Origin: Candidatus Nitrotoga sp. 1052
Lineage (GTDB): Bacteria; Pseudomonadota; Gammaproteobacteria; Burkholderiales; Gallionellaceae
Assembly (NCBI RefSeq): GCF_927312905.1
Contig: NZ_CAKMHQ010000040.1
Location: 1-51,590 of the forward strand
DNA: 51,590 bases
Reading direction: 5' to 3'
The notes beneath the pieces are model-generated. The model was given only the letters and a program-made list of their open reading frames with translations. It was not told where the DNA came from and searched no databases. The number at the start of each line of letters is the position of its first letter. Positions within the stretch are counted from its first letter, which is position 1. A program made the position numbers and the translations under genes. Of the stretch, positions 7,735 to 30,652 are shown piece after piece.

Positions 7735-8200
7735 GACTTTAAGTAACTTAAGGGCTATATTAGAAAAAGTTGGCGCGTATGCTGACGTTAGAAAGATTGC
7801 CCCCTCGGTTCTAGTAGATGCTCGGCTCTACCCAGATATGCTTCCGCTTTCACGCCAGGTTCAGATTGCATCAGACATTGCCAAGAGTGGCGCTTGCCGC
7901 CTTGCAGGAGTTGAGCCGCCAAAATATGAAGACAACGAATCCACTTTCCCAGAGTTAGTGGCACGACTAGACAAGACGATTGCCTTGCTTGAAACCTTCA
8001 AGCCCGAACAAATTGATGGCACGGAGGATAAAACCATCAACCTGCCTTTGCACGACAGGACACTCACCTTTAAAGGTTTGCCCTACTTGCTCGATTCCGT
8101 GCTGCCCAATGTCTATTTTCATGTAACTACCGCCTACGCAATCTTGCGTCATAACGGTGTGGAGATCGGCAAACAGGATTTTTTAGGAAAGTTTGAATAG
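7733..8200 (+). CDS. DUF1993 domain protein, 5'-truncated
   Basis: A 155-residue protein matching DUF1993 (soluble four-helix, DinB-like fold, function unknown). It shows NLRAILEKVGAYADVRKIAP, ARLYPDMLPLSRQVQIASDI, CRLAGVEPPKYED and the C-terminal FHVTTAYAILRHNGVEIGK. Family members begin about 15-18 residues earlier with a segment ending in a Leu-rich helix before NLRAIL. Here that segment is missing, and the sequence just upstream is the end of an IS4-type element. The frame begins at a GTG overlapping the IS end, without a ribosome site. The missing first-helix residues normally contribute to the bundle, so the product may be non-functional. Confidence 0.8.
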   Translation: MTLSNLRAILEKVGAYADVRKIAPSVLVDARLYPDMLPLSRQVQIASDIAKSGACRLAGVEPPKYEDNESTFPELVARLDKTIALLETFKPEQIDGTEDKTINLPLHDRTLTFKGLPYLLDSVLPNVYFHVTTAYAILRHNGVEIGKQDFLGKFE

Positions 8201-8526
8201 CCTAAAAGGCTAGACTTAGCCACCAAACATGTTAAGCAGCATCCAATAATTATTACTTCCGACATCCATTTTTACCAGGATTATAAATATAAAATCCGCG
8301 CACTTGGTCAACGGTCATTGAAGTCATGCGTTTTAGAAAGAAGATGATCTGAATTTTTCGAGTCACTCCAGAATTGTTCGGAACTAAGTATTTATTTTTT
8401 GTCTCCGTCTACTAGTTAAAATGCTTTATGGGACCAGATCGGAATTGCTTCTCAAGTCTATCGGATAGTAGTTATAATTCAACAAATTAGATTGTTACAT
8501 ATGCTAAATTGAGGAGTACGGAAATA
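8201..8526. other. Intergenic region before the Gly-rich secreted protein
   Basis: A stretch of 326 AT-rich bases with no ORF or RNA gene that I can support. It presumably contains the promoter for the two coupled genes that follow. A GAGGAG ribosome site lies at its end (about 8512). Confidence 0.4.
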
Positions 8527-27182: not shown

Positions 27183-27212
27183 AAAATGCTGGTATGTTTA
27201 CCAGCATTTTTT
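27183..27212 (+). promoter_or_regulatory. 12-bp perfect hairpin at the predicted transcript 5' end
   Basis: AAAATGCTGGTA (27183-27194) pairs perfectly with TACCAGCATTTT (27199-27210) around the loop TGTT, and two further T follow. It has the form of an intrinsic terminator, but lies about where the sigma54 transcript starts. It may instead protect the 5' end or act as an early attenuator. Confidence 0.75.
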
Positions 27213-27526
27213 AAGAATAATTTTCGAAGGAACATAACTGCCGGCATTTACAAATGAACTCCAGGATTCTGAAAGACTGCCAAAATTTCTATGCCGGCGA
27301 CGATGAAAAGGTAATAGTTTGAGCTTGCACTGTGCAGGCTCAAGAAGATTCTTACCCCGCAAAAGAAATTTAGCCTGCTCCTTTACTCCCTGATCTGTTT
27401 AATAAATCCTTGATATCCGGGGTAACCATTTGCATGCACCATTGAGGATGCATCCCCGGGAAATTTTATGGGGATTTCTTTATTGATACCCTAAAGTTTA
27501 CAAAAAGATTGCCGATCTATTAGATA
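27213..27526 (+). other. Structured leader upstream of the riboswitch, no ORF
   Basis: No gene is evident. Two more stems are visible. TTGAGCTTGC / GCAGGCTCAA, with one G-T pair around ACTGT, lies near 27317-27341. A long-range CCGGGG / CCCCGG stem encloses a GCATGC...GATGCAT helix near 27416-27459. Whether these are functional is unknown. Confidence 0.5.
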
Positions 27527-27610
27527 GCTGAAAAAGGCAAACCCATCGCGAGGTGGGGACGCAAAGCTTCCGGTCTTAGAAAAGATAGCGGGGTTACCAG
27601 AATGCTCAGG
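27527..27610 (+). ncRNA. Cyclic-di-GMP-I riboswitch (GEMM-I)
   Basis: The conserved core is intact: GGCAAACC (27536-27543), a P2 stem CATC-GCGA-GGTG with a GNRA tetraloop, GGGACGCAAAGCTTCCGG (the tetraloop-receptor side and the junction), a short P3, and ATAGCGGGGTTACC (27585-27598). The base before CAAACC is G, as in c-di-GMP binders, rather than the A seen in the cGAMP-preferring variants. It lies in the leader of the secreted subtilase. It senses c-di-GMP and therefore ties the protease to the sessile/motile switch. Confidence 0.94.
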
Positions 27611-27617
27611 CTTTAAA

Positions 27618-27669
27618 TCCTTGGTGTGTTCATTTGCTTTATCAGCAGACCATTAATATAACCAAGGAG
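27618..27669 (+). promoter_or_regulatory. Predicted expression platform: anti-SD helix
   Basis: TCCTTGGT (27618-27625), just after the riboswitch, is the perfect complement of ACCAAGGA (27661-27668), which contains the Shine-Dalgarno AAGGAG of the subtilase. The competing partner for TTGGT is ACCAG (27596-27600), the 3' strand of the riboswitch P1 region. If P1 is held by c-di-GMP, the anti-SD would be free to block the ribosome site, giving an OFF switch. The pairing is seen; the direction of control is inferred. Confidence 0.65.
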
Positions 27670-27675
27670 TCTGAT

Positions 27676-29541
27676 ATGCCACGCCAACATCAATTTCCAG
27701 TTCAATTTTCTGACAATAATTGTTGCGATCATTCGGGCGCCACGCCCAGTTTCGCACGTTCGCTTCTCCTGGCTGCCATTTTGGCTGGATGTGCCAGTTT
27801 GAGCCATGCTGCGCCATCCACATCGGCCCAGGGAGGGGGGCTGGTAGTTGCACAAGATGCCGGGCCTACCCGCACCCAACCCTTTGCCGGTTGGGCAAAA
27901 GGCCGTTTGCTGATTGCGCCACGCGCTGGTTTGGCCGCTGGTGAGTTTGAGAATGCATTGAAGCCCCACAACGGCAAATCCAGAATCCACCTCAAAAAAC
28001 TCAATGCCCATATAGTCGAACTGCCGGAAGATGCCGATGAAGTGGCAGTTATGCGCGAGTTGAAAAAAGACCACAGACTGAAATACGTCGAGTTGGATAT
28101 GGCGGTCACACATGATGTAGTTGTGTCCGATCCCTATTACAGTAGCAGTTGGGCTCTGCCGAAAATCCAGGCCCCTCTCGCTTGGGACAGTGCCAACGGT
28201 AGCGGCGTGACCATTGCCATTTTGGATACCGGGGTGGATAGTACACATCCCGATCTTGCCTCCAATATAGTTCCCGGCTGGAACATATATAACAACAATG
28301 CCGACACCAGCGACGTGCATGGCCATGGCACCATGGTCGCCGGTACCGCGGCGATGATAGCCAACGATGGTATCGGTAGTGCCGGTGTGGCCTGGGGGGC
28401 CAAAATTATGCCAGTGCGGATATCCGCTCCTGATGGTAGCGTAGCGTACTACAGCACCGTGGCGCAAGGCATCTATTGGGCAGCCGATCATGGCGCCAGG
28501 GTCGTGAACATAAGCTATAGCGGAATATTGGCCAGCTCCACCATTCAGTCTGCGGCGCAATACTTGCGCAACAAGGGTGGCGTGGTTGTGGTGTCTGCCG
28601 GCAATACCGGCGGGTTGTTGGGTTATGCTGCAAGTGATTCCATATTAGTCGCCGCGGCCACCGGCAGTAACGACCAGCGCGCTAGCTGGTCCAGCTATGG
28701 TTCTTACGTGGATATTTCCGCACCTGGTGTCAGTATTTACACCACTCTTCGCGGCGGCGGATATGGCAATGTTTCGGGCACCTCTATCTCTAGCCCGATA
28801 GTGGCAGCGACAGCCGCCTTGATGATCTCAGCCAACAACAATCTAAGCCTCGCTGATATTGACCAGATTTTAAAAGCCACCGCAGTTGATCTGGGCACAA
28901 CTGGATACGATAACTATTATGGCGCGGGTCGGGTTGATGCAGCCAAAGCCGTGGTAGCCGCTCAATCAATAATCAAGACAGCAATTAGCTTGGATACCCA
29001 GGCACCGGCTATTCTCATCACTTCACCGGTGGGCAGCAAGGTGGCCGGTAGTGTTCCCGTCGATGTCAATTATTCCGACAATGTCGGCGTAACCCGTGCC
29101 GAGCTGTATGTTAACGGCCAAAAGTTTGCTACTGACGACATTGCGCCCTTTGCATTTGCCTGGGATACATCAGTGCTCAAGGACGGTGCATACACCCTTG
29201 TCGCTTATGCCTATGACGCGGCAGGTAACTCAGGTGTTTCACCCACCGTTTCGGTAACCATTGGCAGTGACACCGTTGCACCCGTAATCAGCAGCTTCAA
29301 CTTAGCGGATGGCATGACAGTCTCCAATAAGCAGACTGTGCAAGTATCGGCAACCGACAATCAGAGTATCGCCAAAATCGCCCTGAGCATCGACGGCAAG
29401 CAAGTCGCCGTCGCTTATGGCAGCTCTTTGAGTTACAGCTGGAATACCCGCAACATAGCTAAAGGTGCGCATATTGCAACTGTGCAAGCATACGATGCTG
29501 CGAATAACACAACCAGCAAGACCGTAACTGTTTATAAATAG
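27676..29541 (+). CDS. Secreted subtilisin-like serine protease (S8) with Ig-like tail
   Basis: A 621-residue exported protease. A long signal region (about 27-47, RSLLLAAILAGCASLSHA) is followed by a propeptide (about 60-145) with the inhibitor-like RLLIAPRAGL and IVELPEDADEVAVMRELKKD. The S8 catalytic domain (about 155-440) has D184 (ILDTGVDSTHPDL), H217 (HGHGTMVAGT), the oxyanion N310 (SAGNTGG) and S370 (SGTSISSPIVAATAALM). Two Ig-like domains of the Big/cadherin-like type follow (about 455-545 and 548-621, LYVNGQ and ALSIDGKQVA). The ATG at 27676 follows AAGGAG at 6 bases. Expression is governed by the sigma54 promoter and the c-di-GMP riboswitch upstream. It may process surface adhesins or matrix proteins. 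Confidence 0.95.
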   Translation: MPRQHQFPVQFSDNNCCDHSGATPSFARSLLLAAILAGCASLSHAAPSTSAQGGGLVVAQDAGPTRTQPFAGWAKGRLLIAPRAGLAAGEFENALKPHNGKSRIHLKKLNAHIVELPEDADEVAVMRELKKDHRLKYVELDMAVTHDVVVSDPYYSSSWALPKIQAPLAWDSANGSGVTIAILDTGVDSTHPDLASNIVPGWNIYNNNADTSDVHGHGTMVAGTAAMIANDGIGSAGVAWGAKIMPVRISAPDGSVAYYSTVAQGIYWAADHGARVVNISYSGILASSTIQSAAQYLRNKGGVVVVSAGNTGGLLGYAASDSILVAAATGSNDQRASWSSYGSYVDISAPGVSIYTTLRGGGYGNVSGTSISSPIVAATAALMISANNNLSLADIDQILKATAVDLGTTGYDNYYGAGRVDAAKAVVAAQSIIKTAISLDTQAPAILITSPVGSKVAGSVPVDVNYSDNVGVTRAELYVNGQKFATDDIAPFAFAWDTSVLKDGAYTLVAYAYDAAGNSGVSPTVSVTIGSDTVAPVISSFNLADGMTVSNKQTVQVSATDNQSIAKIALSIDGKQVAVAYGSSLSYSWNTRNIAKGAHIATVQAYDAANNTTSKTVTVYK

Positions 29542-29566
29542 ATAGCAAATTTTTGCGGACTGTTCA

Positions 29567-29590
29567 GGCGCCCTTCGGGGCGCTTTTTTT
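29567..29590 (+). terminator. Intrinsic terminator of the subtilase gene
   Basis: GCGCCC-TTCG-GGGCGC stem with a stable TTCG loop, followed by seven T, beginning 26 bases after the stop codon. Confidence 0.95.
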
Positions 29591-29785: not shown

Positions 29786-30652
29786 ATGAAAAAGTCAATA
29801 TTGTCTATCGCTTTCGGAGGGTTGCTTGCCGTCACGCAGGCTTGGGCGGTTAATACCCTGCAACTAGGAGTGCCCGGAGCAACCCCAGGAACTTATGTCA
29901 CCAATACAACAAGTTCTACCATTCCAACTGAGGATGATACTGTCATTACTTCAGGCAACACGTTGCTTGTGGCTGGGTCTTGGAAATTGCCTGATACTTT
30001 AGGCGGGCAGTCGCTTGGGGGGGACGACTGGTCTACTTTTACAAATAAGCTTTCCGTTTTCGATGATAAAGGTGCGATTTTGGTAGTATCTGTGCCTAAT
30101 AACACATTGACATTATTGACATCACTCCAGCTGGCCTCAATTCAAGTGGGGGGCGTTAGCGCTTTCGTCTCGGATGCAGATAACAGTCATTTAACGAATA
30201 ATGCCAATGACGCTAGTGGCCATGATCCAGCGAAGGGATCCATTTCAGATTTTCTCTTCTTCGATATTGGAAATTTCTCAAATGCATCACATACAGTAAA
30301 TGGGGTGCCGAATTTTCAATCATCTCCACTCGATTTTGGTGATGGCCTGATAAAAGAACTTACCCTTTCTGGTTTTGGTTCTCTTGCTTGGGCGCACTTT
30401 GATGTCATGGCATTGGAAACGACAATTGATAGAGATAAAGATGGGAATATTATATTAGATAAAGATGGAAATATTAAAAAAGTTACTACTGTGGTTCAGA
30501 ATAATCCCTTTTCCCATGATGTGACTTGGAAGCCGGGGGATCCCCCCTGCACAGACTGTAACCCCGTAACCATCCCAGAACCAACTACTTTGCTATTGAT
30601 GAGTGCGGGGCTGTTTGGTTTTGGTTTTGCGCGTCGTCGTAGATCAGCCTAA
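29786..30652 (+). CDS. PEP-CTERM sorting domain protein
   Basis: A 288-residue exported protein. The signal peptide is 1-21 (ending AWA). The body is a beta-rich surface domain resembling the choice-of-anchor type, with acidic repeats DRDKDGNIILDKDGNIKKV that could bind calcium. The C-terminus is the classic PEP-CTERM signal: IPEP at 263-266, the TM helix TTLLLMSAGLFGFGFA, and the basic end RRRRSA. An exosortase (not in this window) cleaves near PEP and releases or anchors the protein in the exopolysaccharide matrix. AGGGGAG precedes the ATG. Its sigma54 promoter and its place next to the c-di-GMP-controlled protease suggest a matrix or floc role. Confidence 0.95.
   Translation: MKKSILSIAFGGLLAVTQAWAVNTLQLGVPGATPGTYVTNTTSSTIPTEDDTVITSGNTLLVAGSWKLPDTLGGQSLGGDDWSTFTNKLSVFDDKGAILVVSVPNNTLTLLTSLQLASIQVGGVSAFVSDADNSHLTNNANDASGHDPAKGSISDFLFFDIGNFSNASHTVNGVPNFQSSPLDFGDGLIKELTLSGFGSLAWAHFDVMALETTIDRDKDGNIILDKDGNIKKVTTVVQNNPFSHDVTWKPGDPPCTDCNPVTIPEPTTLLLMSAGLFGFGFARRRRSA

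Follow-up and report, generated by a model that had tools for sequence, protein, structure and literature searches.

A candidate flagellar promoter and a predicted c-di-GMP riboswitch precede a conserved subtilase gene in Candidatus Nitrotoga and Thiobacillus-like bacteria

The subtilase gene described here appears to be a gene of the motile phase that is gated twice, by a candidate FliA (sigma-28) promoter and by a class I c-di-GMP riboswitch predicted to act co-transcriptionally as an OFF switch. We put the probability of this reading at about 0.7. With less assurance, we also lean toward a wider form of it, in which a single transcript would carry a conserved gate with two inputs, open only while sigma-28 is on and c-di-GMP is low, the class I switch would decide co-transcriptionally through a long helix formed against the ligand-contacting strand, and the arrangement would belong, among the loci examined, to a single family of subtilases from nitrite and sulfur oxidizers as a Gram-negative counterpart of the Clostridioides difficile circuit for an adhesin-releasing protease. 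The aptamer, the hairpin over the Shine-Dalgarno (SD) sequence, the recurring alternative helix, the promoter motif and the conservation of the whole unit all come from the sequence and its comparison among genomes. The window, 51,590 nucleotides long, is one whole contig (C40) of the genome of Candidatus Nitrotoga sp. 1052, which comprises 3.23 Mb in 99 contigs. The features of the unit described below, from the promoter to the terminator-like site, lie on its forward strand.

A class I c-di-GMP aptamer upstream of a subtilase gene

The initial annotation of this DNA described a complete GEMM-I core, followed by an octamer able to cover the ribosome-binding site of a subtilase gene. That observation was confirmed overall. 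A scan of the window against Rfam at the gathering threshold gave two matches, one tRNA and an aptamer at positions 27527-27602. The aptamer scored 67.5 bits with RF03167 (c-di-GMP-I-GGC; cut-off 59, E = 6.7e-14), which cmscan retained as the best of its clan, and 69.8 bits against a cut-off of 35 with RF01051, the covariance model proposed in the annotation as a check. No second copy of RF01051 was found in the 3.23 Mb genome.

By our own alignment, in Vc2 numbering, positions G20, A47 and C92 fall at G27536, A27563 and C27597, the putative ligand contacts. These three positions are the ligand contacts described for class I aptamers (PMC4744006). The resulting G-A-C signature is the ordinary c-di-GMP-I one. 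The RF03167 consensus has a G where this aptamer has A27563 at position 47; taking that G as the mark of the GGC variant, which is our own reading of the family name and consensus, we ruled this variant out despite a score over the cut-off. The 3',3'-cGAMP (GEMM-Ib) variant was also ruled out, as position 20 is G27536 and not an A; a G20A mutant is described as binding cGAMP (PMC7288161). Judged by its sequence, the element is a complete class I c-di-GMP aptamer, with c-di-GMP as its predicted ligand.

The gene behind the aptamer begins with the ATG at 27676 and ends at 29541. It encodes an S8 subtilase 621 aa long that matches the Pfam families PF00082 (the subtilase domain, E = 1.8e-50), PF17957 and PF22148, with an N-terminal signal-like stretch, a prodomain-like stretch and bacterial Ig domains. 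Assessed by eye, the hydrophobic N-terminus resembles a signal for export. The motifs around Asp, His and Ser (LDxG, GHGT and GTSxxxP) were present in 15 of 15 long subtilase rows, from which a 16th row, the 68-aa second frame at locus L069, was kept apart. A lipoprotein signal is unsupported: the window protein contains LAGC, but its relative at L064 has an S at that place and rows outside the genus show Y or other letters there. A stem followed by a T run at 29566-29585, 3' of the gene, matches the terminator consensus, so the subtilase transcript probably includes no other gene.

Downstream, at 29786-30652, is a gene for a PEP-CTERM protein. Among the loci compared it was matched through its C-terminal part alone, in a few relatives, so it does not resemble a conserved partner of the subtilase; many loci stop short of that place. 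Upstream of the promoter discussed below, positions 27184-27212 hold a perfect inverted repeat of 11 bp with T's behind it, which is absent from the list of terminator-like sites and on which sub-threshold sRNA models land. We regard the sub-threshold Rfam matches (STnc430, isrB, RsaOG and STnc390) as chance, placed on hairpins with T runs. The stretch 27225-27480 is not a genomic repeat, its one match in the genome being itself.

Within the genus, 12 of 19 genomes contain a class I aptamer and 7 contain the subtilase at E <= 1e-60; all seven carriers have one aptamer directly upstream of the gene. Among 25 subtilase loci compared, 14 (L060-L073) are orthologs with 60-85% identity, six from Nitrotoga and eight from outside the genus. 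The latter are titled Thiobacillus, Hydrogenophilales or Proteobacteria, and we call them Thiobacillus-like. A complete aptamer was found 62-76 nt before the start codon in 14/14 orthologs. The same scan took in two of the 11 weaker relatives, L079 and L082, and found no aptamer upstream of either.

A candidate sigma-28 promoter adjoins the aptamer

Directly before the aptamer is an element that the initial annotation missed, a candidate promoter of the flagellar sigma-28 (FliA) type at 27492-27518. It reads TAAAGTTT-N11-GCCGATCT and matches the searched pattern, TAAAGTTT-N11-GCCGAT, at 14 of 14 specified bases. Its last two bases are CT, where the sigma-28 consensus, TAAAGTTT-N11-GCCGATAA, has AA. 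The transcript probably starts a few bases before the aptamer.

The pattern has two exact matches in the genome, here and before flgM. Five sites with one mismatch precede motA, a gene with an MCP domain, a gene with NIT and HAMP domains, a GspH pilin-like gene and a gene that we read as HDOD without a domain scan. Allowing up to two mismatches gave 41 matches, the same number as the reversed control, so loose matches carry no meaning. We inspected the genes 3' of 12 other matches among the 41. The two-mismatch sites inspected included those before a flagellin gene and flhD, and loose matches also preceded, as judged by eye, a secD-like gene, a polysaccharide-export-like gene and a short frame.

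The motif recurs at a fixed place. It lies 8-10 nt upstream of the aptamer in 16 of 17 rows linked to S8 genes and 7 nt upstream in L007; the 16 include L006, on a contig that stops behind the aptamer, and L070, which has the motif in another register only (a 12-base spacer by eye). By contrast with these rows, none of 22 other GEMM-I loci had a motif scoring at least 10.5, on weights of our own, at 7-10 nt from the aptamer. These 22 were drawn from the 30 loci available for 49 places and include L020 and L030, which have distant S8 genes. At L017 the motif scores 11.5 but stands 23 nt from the aptamer.

A FliA gene is present in the genome. Of the 19 genomes in the genus, 14 scored above the TIGR02479 cut-off, with 7/7 subtilase carriers among them, as did 8/8 genomes holding L066-L073. 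The seven carriers of the genus are found among the 14 genomes with FliA and none among the five without. This co-occurrence is suggestive only, the genomes being few, related and partly incomplete.

The leader is predicted to fold into a hairpin that holds the SD sequence

The SD sequence AAGGAG (27664-27669) stands 6 nt before the ATG. We found the octamer TCCTTGGT of the initial annotation at 27618-27625, perfectly complementary to ACCAAGGA at 27661-27668, exactly as quoted there, as were ACCAG at 27596-27600, the SD and the start codon. Of 5000 dinucleotide shuffles of 27603-27650, 37 produced a perfect complement, 8 nt or longer, to a stretch that overlaps the SD. The leader 27603-27678 folds into a hairpin that contains the SD (z = -3.35; 1 of 200 shuffles was as good), and the octamer sits inside it, in agreement with the sequestering role claimed for it. 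The octamer is not the whole hairpin, however. An outer 5' arm at 27606-27612 adds pairing with 27668-27674, giving a 3' arm that spans 27661-27674 by both the consensus fold and pair counts.

RNAalifold on seven Nitrotoga leaders predicted a long hairpin in which 27606-27611 pairs with 27669-27674 and 27618-27624 with 27662-27668; 27612 is left unpaired and 27618 takes 27668 instead. This hairpin extends inward and is joined by an inner stem. The 14 named pairs were kept in 98.0% of the 98 cells, whereas slid versions reached 22.0-55.8%. Covariation in these seven leaders, which are 92% alike, was not above that of shuffles (348/500). The pair 27623-27663 varies by species among G-C, G-U and A-U. 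No terminator-like site is listed between 27602 and 27675, which rules out an intrinsic terminator between the aptamer and the ATG.

A 13-bp alternative helix recurs in all leaders compared

The 5' strand of the aptamer (27526-27541), which contains the 5' strand of P1 and G20, is predicted to have a second partner in the leader. The best duplex (E -14.4; 12 of 1000 shuffles as good) joins it to a switch strand at 27632-27647, found by duplex search and forced folding, through 13 bp: 27527-27531 with TCAGC at 27642-27646, and 27534-27541 with TTTGCTTT at 27633-27640. Because the second block includes G27536, the ligand-contacting G20 would itself be paired. The helix also crosses the SD hairpin, so that the two are mutually exclusive in a nested fold.

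We compared 16 leaders, namely the window, the 14 orthologs L060-L073 and the second element of L069. The alternative helix was the lowest-energy duplex at the same place in 16/16, with the switch strand ending 22-29 nt upstream of the start codon. In single leaders, 2 to 174 of 1000 shuffles were as good, the weakest being L069 (174). The mean z was -2.20, compared with +0.27 for 16 coding-region controls and -0.13 for 22 other GEMM-I leaders (1 of 23 was skipped), among which the best single value was -1.99 (L025). In 10 representatives, aptamer strands paired better with their own leaders than with permuted ones: 23 of 20000 permutations reached the observed mean, and 24 of 720 did so for the outer block, both figures ignoring kinship. 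Some aptamer strands pair better with the leader of another species, such as that of L066 with that of L070. Both strands of the outer block vary. The block is GCUG:CAGC in the seven Nitrotoga leaders; in the nine leaders from outside the genus it is CCUG:CAGG in four, CCUG:CGGG in two, and otherwise UCUG:CAGG, CCUG:UGGG or, in L069, CAG:CUG. Because the MAFFT alignment of the 16 sequences puts the switch strands of the two groups out of register, we give no pair counts on it.

Timing and polarity

We folded the window RNA freely and with either state forced. The probability that the SD is open was 0.02 in the free ensemble, 0.02 with the aptamer forced and 0.36 with the alternative helix forced. 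In six of the seven Nitrotoga leaders, opening rose from 0.00-0.03 (aptamer) to 0.24-0.37 (alternative), and L064 showed no gain (0.36 and 0.32). Among the nine leaders from outside the genus it rose in six, in L066 merely from 0.34 to 0.36, and fell in L068, L069 and L071. Folded at full length with and without the aptamer, as the initial annotation had suggested, the window RNA kept its SD closed, and the alternative was 3.6 kcal/mol worse than the aptamer state, in energies that contain neither tertiary nor ligand terms. Since this RNA is closed at full length whether or not the aptamer is formed, switching would have to be co-transcriptional or to depend on terms that the model lacks.

The balance changes along the transcript. 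Before the SD is transcribed (3' end 20-27 nt upstream of the start), the alternative was favored by 4.1-14.0 kcal/mol in 16/16 leaders. Completion of the leader moved the balance toward the aptamer state in all 16 and had reversed it in nine by +30, where the alternative was still favored in seven. A decision made before the SD is transcribed may thus reconcile closure at full length with switching. As the alternative wins before the SD is made, and early binding of ligand would leave the SD hairpin free to form, c-di-GMP would turn translation off. This polarity, already proposed in the initial annotation, is the better-supported one in our models, in that, of the three ensembles of the window RNA, only the one consuming the aptamer 5' strand opens the SD; the closure of the full-length RNA without ligand speaks against it. 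The earlier interpretation as a whole is partly supported.

Competing explanations

The initial annotation had derived the OFF switch from a different partner, ACCAG in the 3' strand of P1, which in the ligand-free state would pair with TTGGT (27621-27625). The window contains all five pairs, which would occupy C92, and TTGGT is kept in five of the seven Nitrotoga leaders. The pairing is only 5 bp including one G-U, however, and is broken by leader changes in L060 (TTAGT) and L065 (TTGAT). It is also missing from the alternative structure of lowest energy computed for the window, where 27620-27624 pairs with 27606-27610. We consider this route improbable, and the 13-bp helix is better supported as the competing structure. 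An ON switch, with translation raised by ligand binding, is suggested by L069, whose SD opening is 0.28 in the aptamer state and drops to 0.01 in the alternative, and L068 and L071 show the same tendency; Vibrio cholerae is described as having a pair of class I switches that differ in polarity (PMC6366702). Against this, the alternative state raises SD opening in 12 of 16 leaders (barely in L066) and lowers it in four (slightly in L064), and the SD of the window is closed in the aptamer-forced ensemble, which makes an ON switch quite unlikely here.

The closed free ensemble of the window would also be expected if the hairpin limited translation regardless of ligand, the switch being vestigial or the leader being opened by protein, heat or the ribosome. 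We find a constitutively closed leader unlikely, given an alternative helix that stands at one place in all 16 leaders and is on average absent from control leaders, and an aptamer that is complete in every ortholog scanned. Control might instead be transcriptional, with Rho ending the untranslated leader RNA in the ligand-bound state once the SD is sequestered. This would fit the proposed structures, and the missing leader terminator speaks solely against an intrinsic route; we give control by Rho a small chance. The reading that we prefer is the translational OFF switch operated by the 13-bp helix.

Proposed mechanism and relation to known systems

In the preferred scheme, sigma-28 polymerase would start the transcript at the aptamer, as the promoter motif suggests, and the aptamer would fold first as the leader emerges. 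At high c-di-GMP, bound ligand would lock the aptamer 5' strand, and in the finished leader 27606-27625 would pair with 27661-27674, bury the SD and keep translation off. At low c-di-GMP, the switch strand (27633-27646) would capture the 5' strand (27527-27541) including G20, which would destroy the binding pocket and exclude the anti-SD hairpin in a nested fold, leaving the SD freer and translation on. Synthesis of the subtilase would coincide with active FliA and low c-di-GMP, as in swimming or dispersing cells. A flagellar promoter combined with a c-di-GMP block on translation would mean that the enzyme comes mainly from cells leaving or outside the attached state. We infer the ligand, the polarity, the kinetic control and the physiological role in this scheme from the features described above.

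Parts of such a circuit are already known, namely lowering of a secreted protease by c-di-GMP through a class I riboswitch (zmpI) and FliA control of proteases (Bdellovibrio). In C. difficile, the mRNA of the protease ZmpI (PPEP-1) carries a class I riboswitch and is negatively regulated by c-di-GMP (PMC6366702). The two systems share the class I aptamer and the lowering of a protease by c-di-GMP, and the zmpI protease releases surface proteins, opposing the sessile state. They differ in that functional class I switches of C. difficile are described as acting by transcription termination, and in that zmpI encodes a zinc metalloprotease, with no flagellar promoter mentioned in the sections of PMC6366702 consulted. 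Cd1, before the C. difficile flgB operon, is likewise class I, OFF and linked to motility, but it acts by termination on the flagellar genes themselves, above the flagellar sigma factor and not below it (PMC6366702). Vc1 and Vc2 of V. cholerae are Gram-negative class I switches that do not act by termination, although they respond in opposite ways to each other and control other genes (PMC4744006, PMC6366702). In the attack phase of Bdellovibrio, whose FliA motif is given as TTAAG-N16-CCGATA, the FliA regulon reaches proteases and a c-di-GMP riboswitch RNA (merRNA) is present in the motile phase (PMC3627812). Unlike the present leader, merRNA is followed by no conserved reading frame and bears no FliA mark in its row of the table there; its authors propose a c-di-GMP store (PMC3627812).

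Among the matches listed in searches of the open-access literature, we found neither a FliA-driven c-di-GMP riboswitch before a subtilase nor a report of both gates on one transcript; an article on guanidine and comammox bacteria (PMC11410670) contains both "Nitrotoga" and "riboswitch". If the proposed scheme is true, two independent layers link an exported protease to swimming in nitrite and sulfur oxidizers, organisms in which settling and dispersal are difficult to follow in the laboratory. With a recurring switch strand, the polarity of a class I switch could also be predicted from its sequence and tested in E. coli.

Observations at related loci

Several related loci showed further arrangements. 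L069 has a second aptamer downstream (7915-8252) with a FliA-like motif, ahead of a frame whose beginning resembles that of the subtilase but which ends at 68 aa. L007 (G018, contig C1) has a FliA-like promoter and an aptamer of the subtilase type, followed by a leader and gene start like those of L004 (G013); the aptamer may be a point of recombination. One genome (G014) holds two near-identical aptamer copies on two contigs, L006 and L060, which would reflect either a duplication or the assembly of two strains. L020 and L030, from two genomes of other families within the order, each carry a gene of S8 type (52% and 32% identity) behind a GEMM-I aptamer, with neither a FliA motif adjoining the aptamer nor an anti-aptamer signal in the first 75 nt. 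Judging from these two loci, the link between a predicted riboswitch and a subtilase recurs with other platforms.
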